DNA of 64,000 nt. It comes from Flavobacteriaceae bacterium CG_4_10_14_3_um_filter_33_47. Its GTDB lineage: Bacteria > Bacteroidota > Bacteroidia > Flavobacteriales > Flavobacteriaceae. Location of the stretch: assembly GCA_002784145.1 (NCBI GenBank), contig PFKE01000088.1, forward strand, positions 1 through 64,000, in the 5' to 3' direction. A program made the translations under genes and the position numbers. The notes under the pieces are model-generated. The model had not been told where the DNA came from and did not search any database. It saw only the letters and a program-made list of their open reading frames with translations. How positions within the stretch are numbered: the stretch's first letter is position 1; each line of letters begins with the position of its first letter. This document shows positions 7,277-11,030 of this stretch, piece after piece.

Positions 7277-10261
7277 ATGATTAAAAAAAATATAACAGCA
7301 CTATTAGGAAAGGCTATTAGAGAAGGTAAATATCTTAATATCACTTACAAAAATAAAATTGGAGAAATTACTCCTTTTTGGATTTGTATTTTGGATATTA
7401 ATGCAAACGATGAACTTTATGTCAATATGTTTAATGTTACTAAAGATGAACCTGTTTTAGACGTAAAAATTTTCATATCAAGCATACAGACAGCTGAAAT
7501 CTTAAAATTTTCACATTATGATGTAACTGACGAACTAATAAAAAAGATTGAAGAAGATGAGAGTTTGCAGAAATATAACTTTGATAGATATGACAACAAT
7601 ATTTTAAATTATTATTTAGAATGTTATAAAGCAAATAATAACCCATTTTTACACAAGATGCATTTAATTCCAAATTTGGATTTAAATACATTCATTAATA
7701 ACAATACAGCACCATTAACAAAGCAGCAGCAGTACCACATTATAAGAGACATTTATAACAATGATTATAATACATTCTATGATTACGAGCTTGCTTTATG
7801 TGAATTTTCAATTGACTTAGAATCAAGAGGTAAATTTGTTGTTGCGTTTAGAAAATTAACTTATGACCCTATTGGGAAAACACTTGAAATAGGAAATAAA
7901 ACACAATTCAATTCAAATTTTTACATTAAAGGCATAAAATATTCGCTGTCTTATTATACCGATTTAAGTCCTGTAGATTTTGAAACGTTATACCTTAAAG
8001 ACAAAATTGGTACTATCGCTTTATTAAAAGACTATTTTAAATCGGGAGAATTACCTAACACAAGACCAGAAATTGTAGTGTTGGGCTATGCCCAAATTGA
8101 TATTTCTGGTATTTACGAAGAGATCAATGTAGAACACTCGAAGAAAGAACTGCAAATTCCATTAAAAGCATTCTTTCAAAACCTAACCTTACTGGATAGG
8201 AAAAATAGAACAGAACCGTATATTGTTCTTTATGATAATAATGTCAATATAGACCAGCTCCGAACTGTTTATAATTCGTTAAAATACCCCATTACTTATG
8301 TACAAGGGCCTCCGGGTACAGGAAAAACGCAAACCATCTTAAATATTGTAGCTAATTGTTTGACGAACGAAAAAACCTTATTGATTTCTTCCAATAATAA
8401 CATTCCCATTGATGGCATCAAAGACAAATTGTATTTAGGAACCTTTAAAAATAAAGAGATTCTATTTCCAATGATTAGACTTGGAAATAATACCTGTGTA
8501 GCGGAAGCCTTAAAAAAGATAAAAGTGCTTTATGAGTTTGAAACAAAAGATGTTCCGAAAAAAGAACTCTTACTTAATTTAAAAGAGGAGTCAAAGGAAC
8601 GCAATAAAATACTACTTGAAAGATTAAAAAATTATGAAGACCGAATTGATTTAGAGCAAAATTTGGGGTTTATTAATGGTTTGCTATCAAAAGGTAGTTA
8701 TTGGGCACTTGAAGAAGAAAAAGCAGCACTAGAAAAACGACTCCATCAAATTCCCAAAACCACAGACGATAATGTTAAAGGCATTTTTGAGGTTATAAAA
8801 GATAATTACCAGTTACTTCAATATTTTTACTTTGAGTCTTTAAGATATATAAAACGCCTAAAAACAAAGGCTTATAGTGAGCTAATTGCCATAGCCTATC
8901 TTGAAGATGAAAAAGAGCAAGTAAAAGAATTTAATAAATGGATTGCAGATGATGTGAATTTAAAAAAATTTACCAGAGTTTTTCCCATTATACTTACCAC
9001 CAATATTTCAAGTAGAAAATTGGGAACGCATTTTAAATTTGATTTATTAACAATGGATGAAGCAGGGCAGTGTGATATTGCCACCAGTTTAATCCCTATT
9101 TCTAAATGCACAAATATGGTTTTAATTGGAGATACCAATCAACTAAAACCAATTGTAGTTTTTGAAGAAAGTAAGAATAACGAATTCTTAGATCAATTTA
9201 AGATTGATGCGCTTTATGACTACTACAACAACTCTATACTATCAGTATATAAAAATATAGATAATATTTCAAGAGATATTTTATTGAGCTACCATTATCG
9301 TTGTGGTGAAAAGATTATCAATTATTCTAATATGAGATTTTATGAGAATAGGTTAAATCTTTCGGCAATAAAAAACACAGGTACTTTAAAATTATTGGAT
9401 GTAACTAATGTAAATCATAAAAATAAAAACTCTCAGATAGAAGAGGCAATAGGCATTGTAAACTACATAAAAGACAATAAATTATCGGATGTTTTTATTA
9501 TTACACCTTTTAGAAATCAAGAAGAAGTTATAAATCATTATCTAAAAGAAGCTAAAGAAAATGGAAATATAAATTCTTCCGTAAGCTGTGGCACAATTCA
9601 TAAAATTCAAGGGCAAGAAAATAAAACTATAATAATTTCTACGGCAATTTCAAGACAAACAAGTCCAAGAACTTACGATTGGATAAAAAATAATAGCCAA
9701 TTGATAAATGTTGGGGTTACTAGAGCCAAAGAAAATTTAATTGTTGTAACCGATAGAAAGGCCATAGATATTTTGTCTAAAAAAGATGATGATTTGTATG
9801 CCTTGATTGATTATGTTGAAAAAAACGGAACCACTCAAATCTCACATAGTATCGCTAATAAACTCACAATTGGTTTTTCAAATAATTCTAAGTTTGAGGA
9901 TGAGTTTTATAAAACCATGCTGCATTACTGTACCATAAATGGTGTGCGTTTCGAGCGGAATATAAAAATAGTTGATGTGTTTCCAGAAGAAAGGCATAAT
10001 ACTCTAGTAAATAAAAAAGAGTTTGATGCTGCTATTTTCCAAGGACTTGAGCCTAAAATTATTTTTGAAATAAATGGGATTGAGCATTATAAAAATAAAC
10101 GCCGTATGGCATCGGATAAAATTAAAATGGAATTATTAAAAGGAAAACAAGTCCTATTTCTATCTATTCCAAATCAGTATGTGAAACATTATGAGTTTAT
10201 AATAGAATTAATTAAAAAGTTTAAAGGTGATATTTATCAAAAAACATTGTTTGACTATTAG
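7277..10261 (+). CDS. Large SF1 (UPF1/DNA2-like) helicase, putative WYL-like N-terminal domain and PD-(D/E)XK-like C-terminal nuclease domain
   Basis: Walker A YVQGPPGTGKTQTI, Walker B LLTMDEAGQCD, GDTNQLKPIV, GTIHKIQGQENKTIIIS, NVGVTRAKENLIVV; C-term EFDAAIF...KIIFEINGIEHY...DKIKMELL. Confidence 0.85.
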   Translation: MIKKNITALLGKAIREGKYLNITYKNKIGEITPFWICILDINANDELYVNMFNVTKDEPVLDVKIFISSIQTAEILKFSHYDVTDELIKKIEEDESLQKYNFDRYDNNILNYYLECYKANNNPFLHKMHLIPNLDLNTFINNNTAPLTKQQQYHIIRDIYNNDYNTFYDYELALCEFSIDLESRGKFVVAFRKLTYDPIGKTLEIGNKTQFNSNFYIKGIKYSLSYYTDLSPVDFETLYLKDKIGTIALLKDYFKSGELPNTRPEIVVLGYAQIDISGIYEEINVEHSKKELQIPLKAFFQNLTLLDRKNRTEPYIVLYDNNVNIDQLRTVYNSLKYPITYVQGPPGTGKTQTILNIVANCLTNEKTLLISSNNNIPIDGIKDKLYLGTFKNKEILFPMIRLGNNTCVAEALKKIKVLYEFETKDVPKKELLLNLKEESKERNKILLERLKNYEDRIDLEQNLGFINGLLSKGSYWALEEEKAALEKRLHQIPKTTDDNVKGIFEVIKDNYQLLQYFYFESLRYIKRLKTKAYSELIAIAYLEDEKEQVKEFNKWIADDVNLKKFTRVFPIILTTNISSRKLGTHFKFDLLTMDEAGQCDIATSLIPISKCTNMVLIGDTNQLKPIVVFEESKNNEFLDQFKIDALYDYYNNSILSVYKNIDNISRDILLSYHYRCGEKIINYSNMRFYENRLNLSAIKNTGTLKLLDVTNVNHKNKNSQIEEAIGIVNYIKDNKLSDVFIITPFRNQEEVINHYLKEAKENGNINSSVSCGTIHKIQGQENKTIIISTAISRQTSPRTYDWIKNNSQLINVGVTRAKENLIVVTDRKAIDILSKKDDDLYALIDYVEKNGTTQISHSIANKLTIGFSNNSKFEDEFYKTMLHYCTINGVRFERNIKIVDVFPEERHNTLVNKKEFDAAIFQGLEPKIIFEINGIEHYKNKRRMASDKIKMELLKGKQVLFLSIPNQYVKHYEFIIELIKKFKGDIYQKTLFDY

Positions 10262-10322
10262 CGGCAAAATGATAATAGGTAAATTTATGAAACAACAAAT
10301 TATAAAAATAATTTTTTAAAAT

Positions 10323-11030
10323 ATGAGCTGGTATGACATACCTGAAATTGATCTTTTCTCGGATGGAGGAGCTGAACCTAACCCTGGAAAGGGTGGGTTT
10401 GGCGTGATATTACGATATAAGGGTAGACAAAAGGAATTTTCTGAGGGCTATGAGCTAACGACTAACAATAGAATGGAGTTAATGGCTGTGATTTTTGGTT
10501 TAGAAAAAATTAAGACTAAGGCAAAAGTTACCGTTTACTCGGATTCCAAATATGTTGTTGATGGCATTGAACAAGGATGGGCAGTTGGTTGGGAAAGAGA
10601 TAATTGGATTAAGAAAAAAGGTAATTTGGTGTTCAATAAGGATTTATGGCAAAGATTATTGGATGTTATAGATAAACATGAAGTGACTTTTAACTGGGTA
10701 AAAGGACATGATGGCCATATTGAAAATGAACGTTGTGATTATTTAGCTAATAATGGGATCAATTCTGAACATAAAATTAAGGACGAAGGGTACTTAGAGT
10801 ATCTAGAAAATATTGAGTACTACCAAGAACAGAAAATAGAAAAAGAAGGTGATGTGTGCAGAAAGTGTGATGTACCAGTAGTAATTAAACGCCCTAAAAA
10901 ACGTAAAGTCAAACAAAACCAAAACTACTATTATGAGTATTATCTCTTTTGCCCAATTTGTAAAACAATGTATATGGTAGAAGATGCAAAACGAACCCTT
11001 GACCAACAAGGCAACACATTATTCGAATAA
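10323..11030 (+). CDS. RNase HI with C-terminal zinc-ribbon extension
   Basis: DLFSDGGAEPNPGKGG, NNRMELMAV, YSDSKYVVDGI, WVKGHDGHIENERCDYLAN; C-term CRKC...CPIC pairs. Confidence 0.9.
   Translation: MSWYDIPEIDLFSDGGAEPNPGKGGFGVILRYKGRQKEFSEGYELTTNNRMELMAVIFGLEKIKTKAKVTVYSDSKYVVDGIEQGWAVGWERDNWIKKKGNLVFNKDLWQRLLDVIDKHEVTFNWVKGHDGHIENERCDYLANNGINSEHKIKDEGYLEYLENIEYYQEQKIEKEGDVCRKCDVPVVIKRPKKRKVKQNQNYYYEYYLFCPICKTMYMVEDAKRTLDQQGNTLFE

Follow-up and report, generated by a model that had tools for sequence, protein, structure and literature searches.

Two adjacent genes in a flavobacterial island

Does physical proximity on an island make two genes a system? The window, a 64,000-nucleotide stretch of flavobacterial DNA, contains two neighboring open reading frames (ORFs) that a first-pass annotation had proposed to form an undescribed two-gene system. 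The first (positions 7277 to 10261, forward strand) encodes a 994-amino-acid (aa) SF1 helicase of the UPF1/Sen1-like type with a C-terminal DUF2726-type REase-like domain, an identification based on Pfam, on the PDB structures of Sen1 and Upf1, on its motifs, and on a full-length homologue in the genome G1003. The second (10323 to 11030, forward strand) encodes a 235-aa RNase HI with intact catalytic residues and a C-terminal four-Cys ribbon. Both ORFs proved intact and lie on the same strand, separated by a gap of 61 bp that had been estimated at about 60 bp. No terminator-like site was found in this gap, so the helicase and the RNase HI may be co-transcribed in the window. Both genes evolve under purifying selection, with dN/dS values of about 0.05 to 0.08 and a dS that is high to saturated. 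Their G+C content differs, at 28.7% for the helicase and 35.0% for the RNase HI, and that of the chromosome to the right of the island is 32.9%.

The two genes are located on an island of ∼9.5 kb (4054 to 13598) that has a 16-bp direct repeat matching the end of tRNA-Ser, TCAGCGGAGAAAGAGG, at its two borders and that we identify as an integrated element with a truncated integrase. The left repeat (4054 to 4069, forward strand) is a probable att site, and the right one (13583 to 13598, forward strand) overlaps the 3' end of the integration target, a tRNA-Ser(tga) gene (13586 to 13671, reverse strand). The 13-bp core of the repeat was matched in 0 of 100 shuffles. Furthermore, four genomes of the genus align with the window only rightwards from about 13585 (13584 to 13586). 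The other genes of the island had been described as decaying, which we found to be true for some of them. The tyrosine integrase (12899 to 13309, reverse strand) is reduced to its Arm-DNA-bind_5 domain (136 aa versus about 405 aa in relatives), and an AbiEii fragment (85 aa) with a DUF6922 protein (95 aa) represents the remnant of a toxin-antitoxin-type pair (4819 to 5367, reverse strand). In contrast, a HipA-like kinase (416 aa; 11229 to 12479, reverse strand) and a HipB-like HTH protein (95 aa; 12481 to 12768, reverse strand), both of them cargo, appear intact.

The tRNA-Ser gene bears other cargo in other genomes of the genus. A full integrase is present at this site in G302, and in G297 (L171 1-6000) a gene for a DUF6079 protein, truncated to 1167 aa by the edge of the locus, precedes one for a DNA methylase; the two possibly represent a BREX-like defense locus.

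The 994-aa protein has a UPF1-like core and resembles known anti-phage helicases only in that core

Pfam identified AAA_11 (E = 1.4e-28, 100.8 bits) and AAA_12 (E = 3e-18, 66.5 bits) over residues 323 to 827 of the 994-aa protein. The full set of SF1 motifs reported by the first-pass annotation was recovered: Walker A (GPPGTGKT, residues 344 to 351), DEAG (594 to 597), GDTNQ, QGQE, and TRA. The AAA_11/AAA_12 core, the Walker A and DEAx motifs, motif III, and the arginine-finger motifs together assign the protein to the UPF1-like SF1 helicases, and the closest solved structures in the PDB are those of Sen1, Upf1, and IGHMBP2. The core and motifs (about residues 323 to 830) are common to the UPF1/Sen1/IGHMBP2-type helicases (PF13086, PF13087; TIGR00376), but the window protein adds an N-terminal domain and a REase-like C terminus to them, and it scored 114.5 bits against NCBIfam TIGR00376, whose cut-off is 348.9.

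We also compared the protein with helicases of described defense systems. It shares the SF1 core with Mokosh (PADLOC; 144 bits for MkoC and 129 bits for MkoA), but these matches are confined to the helicase core and the window C terminus is REase-like, so we did not assign the protein to Mokosh. The Mokosh nuclease is of the phospholipase-D type, and no such nuclease was seen in the 994-aa protein. The anti-phage helicases Hhe, ProA, and PLuB (NCBIfam) likewise matched weakly and over the core only, with 69.6, 84.5, and 79.2 bits versus cut-offs of 2000, 1500, and 999, respectively; these proteins are twice as long as the window helicase or contain other domains. Plasmid matches to the helicase were also limited to its core, and none of the four loci inspected had an annotated RNase HI beside the match. 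We found no paper on this helicase/RNase HI pair in the literature.

The C-terminal domain is a likely nuclease

The C-terminal domain (about residues 870 to 994; 9884 to 10258, forward strand) had been interpreted as a PD-(D/E)XK/DUF559-type nuclease. The C terminus of the window protein gave weak, coinciding matches to DUF2726 (E = 0.063, 13.5 bits) and DUF559 (E = 0.09). The C terminus of the G1003 homologue matched DUF2726 with an E value of 2.6e-5 and 24.4 bits, 0.3 bit under the curated cut-off of 24.7, and a ∼900-aa relative in G942 matched the MTES_1575 REase at the equivalent C-terminal position (E = 2.1e-5). The catalytic acidic residues D917 and E931 are present and, together with H937, D947, and K950, are kept in the homologue from G1003. 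A single-sequence structure model of residues 860 to 994 had a pLDDT of 43. The lysine of E-x-K is replaced by N933, which counts against a nuclease.

DUF2726 has been described as a REase-fold DNase, and fusions of SF-I helicases with Vsr-REase domains are known from conflict systems (PMC3710099). The window protein has the same arrangement as the DUF2726/MTES_1575-type SF1 helicase-REase fusions described there (PMC3710099), with the helicase followed by the REase-fold domain, but it is devoid of their transglutaminase, HEPN, and wHTH domains, and its N-terminal 105 aa belong to no assigned family. Because of the DUF2726 and MTES_1575 matches, the kept residues, and these described fusions, the C-terminal domain likely has nuclease activity.

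The N-terminal domain is constrained and marginally WYL-like at best

Residues 1 to 105 (7277 to 7591, forward strand) had been proposed to be WYL-like. Pfam returned no match to this N terminus and no WYL match anywhere in the window's genome, and the N terminus of the G1003 homologue matched WYL with an E value of 0.15. We then used an HMM made from 19 flavobacterial WYL domains. The HMMER score was not separated from that of shuffled sequences, one or two of 2000 shuffles being equal to it, and hhalign gave 59% over 27 columns only. When aligned by eye with the 19 domains, the window protein has ELYV and VKIFISSI at the sites of W-Y-L and R-x-F-R-x-D-R-I. We regard a WYL sensor as unproven: the matches to Pfam, to the 19-domain HMM, and with hhalign are marginal and insignificant, and the diagnostic residues, W-Y-L and the conserved arginines, are missing. 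A single-sequence model of residues 1 to 112 predicted a helix followed by four strands (pLDDT, 43), a fold that would be compatible with a WYL-like barrel but is no proof of one.

This domain is missing from the ∼900-aa relatives, which begin at a point equivalent to residue ∼107 of the window protein. Its dN/dS of about 0.05, with a saturated dS, indicates that the N-terminal 105-aa domain is real and constrained.

The RNase HI carries an additional ribbon

The 235-aa protein scored 190.1 bits against PRK00203 (curated cut-off, 160), which places it among the RNase HI proteins, and its residues 7 to 157 align to Escherichia coli RNase HI. In agreement with the first reading of the sequence, all catalytic residues (D14, E52, D74, H129, and D139) are present, as is a zinc ribbon with four cysteines (C179, C182, C210, and C213, as CRKC...CPIC). 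The protein therefore has the whole catalytic domain and the five catalytic residues in common with bacterial RNase HI (RnhA) but differs from it by the extra C-terminal four-Cys ribbon. A search of the phylum with the C terminus of the RNase HI yielded the window's own copy only, ribbon-only queries had no match on plasmids, and plasmid and phage matches to the whole protein covered the catalytic part only.

The same four-Cys C-terminal ribbon occurs in two RNase HIs from Planctomycetes (L052 6331-7053; L053 2311-3021), one of which sits among ordinary metabolic genes. A related ribbon with an altered first Cys pair (CLC) constitutes a 66-aa stand-alone protein in G662 (L135 9669-9869).

The nearest homologues of each gene lack the partner

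We surveyed the helicase homologues in 398 genomes of the family, with one genome per species. Only one close homologue was obtained; it is encoded by G1003, a complete genome from another Flavobacteriaceae genus, and is identical to the window protein at 733 of 1005 positions (73%) over the full length. The other six genomes of the window's genus contained no homologue of the helicase. No RNase HI was found in the 20 kb surrounding the G1003 helicase, and the sole RNase HI match in that genome, an ordinary enzyme without the ribbon, is encoded about 0.7 Mb away. The G1003 helicase adjoins a fragment that resembles, by eye, a tRNA 3' end (ARAGORN detected no whole tRNA there) and is close to R-M-type genes. 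The proteins encoded in its vicinity include a methylase-like one, an integrase, and a UvrD-PDDEXK protein.

For the RNase HI, an 83%-identical protein is encoded in a different defense island of G300, a sister species in the window's genus, and no helicase of the 994-aa kind was found in this genome. Nucleotide similarity stops at the ORF borders both between the two helicase genes and between the two RNase HI genes. Thus, the nearest homologue of each gene is without the partner, and this lack of conserved co-occurrence does not support the proposed two-gene system; the absence of an RNase HI neighbor from the closest helicase homologue is an outcome that the first-pass annotation had itself named as counterevidence. 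Given the partner-free homologues, the ends of similarity at the ORF borders, and the difference in G+C content, two separate acquisitions are the simplest reading. As there is one close homologue per side, both lineages may instead have lost the partner secondarily.

In G300 (L046 5772-8893), the RNase HI gene is located 11 bp upstream of a gene for an 802-aa UvrD-like helicase that has a zinc ribbon and, by eye, a nuclease-like insert in its N-terminal half. A plasmid search with this helicase gave no match. The neighborhood contains the PADLOC candidates PDC-S14, PDC-S41, and PDC-M01 and a type I R-M locus. In the two species in which we found the ribbon RNase HI, the window's and G300, its neighbor is thus an SF1 helicase that has a nuclease-like domain, an observation that counts against two independent passengers.

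Two independent passengers as the preferred explanation

Our preferred explanation, which we consider probable, is that the island, an integrated element, carries the two genes as independent passengers. In this reading, the 994-aa protein would be a stand-alone ATP-driven SF1 translocase of the UPF1/Sen1 type. The nucleic acid on which the motor loads would be cleaved by the DUF2726-type domain at the C terminus, and the N-terminal 105-aa domain probably recognizes a target or a partner. Its most likely job would be the restriction of phages or plasmids, and a role in defense is plausible from its family and its context. The RNase HI would be an ordinary enzyme, catalytically intact as judged by its residues, that has a zinc-ribbon tail, was acquired separately, and would not act jointly with the helicase.

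In the two-gene system, the helicase-nuclease would unwind or degrade foreign DNA while the RNase HI would remove the exposed RNA:DNA hybrids, either R-loops or replication primers, and both proteins would be needed. The 61-bp spacing on one strand, the terminator-free gap, and the intactness of both genes under purifying selection would suit such a system, but the partner-free homologues, the ORF-border ends of similarity, and the unequal G+C contents (28.7% versus 35.0%) make it very unlikely. The context in G300 also leaves room, at a low probability, for a mobile ribbon RNase HI that would join varied SF1 helicase-nucleases time and again on flavobacterial defense islands, the helicase exposing and cutting DNA and the RNase HI clearing RNA:DNA hybrids in interchangeable accessory pairs.

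Other explanations concern each gene separately. UPF1/IGHMBP2-type helicases function in nucleic acid maintenance, and ∼900-aa relatives of the window protein are found among ordinary chromosomal genes in G931, G955, and G942, so the helicase might serve the host or the island in repair or in RNA/R-loop maintenance and not in defense. However, its absence from the six other genomes of the genus, its single close homologue in the family survey, and the location of both full-length copies on islands, next to attachment-site-like sequences, render this role rather improbable. As for the RNase HI, the island copy is the sole match in the window's genome, and G300 likewise has one full-length copy, the 83%-identical one, with otherwise only fragments, as would be expected if the ribbon enzyme replaced a missing housekeeping RNase HI and were kept for that function. 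Yet the five remaining genomes of the six had no RNase HI match at the threshold used, which suggests that RNase HI function is dispensable there, and we regard such a replacement as unlikely. RNase HI is, on the whole, patchy across the genus.

Altogether, close neighbors on a defense-type island need not be a system, and the context of their nearest homologues can separate them. Screens for anti-phage activity could reasonably include the helicase-nuclease as a single gene, given its N-terminal domain, which is strongly conserved although assigned to no family. Should the ribbon RNase HI indeed accompany SF1 helicase-nucleases across islands, bacterial immunity would be employing RNase H in a modular way that is new.
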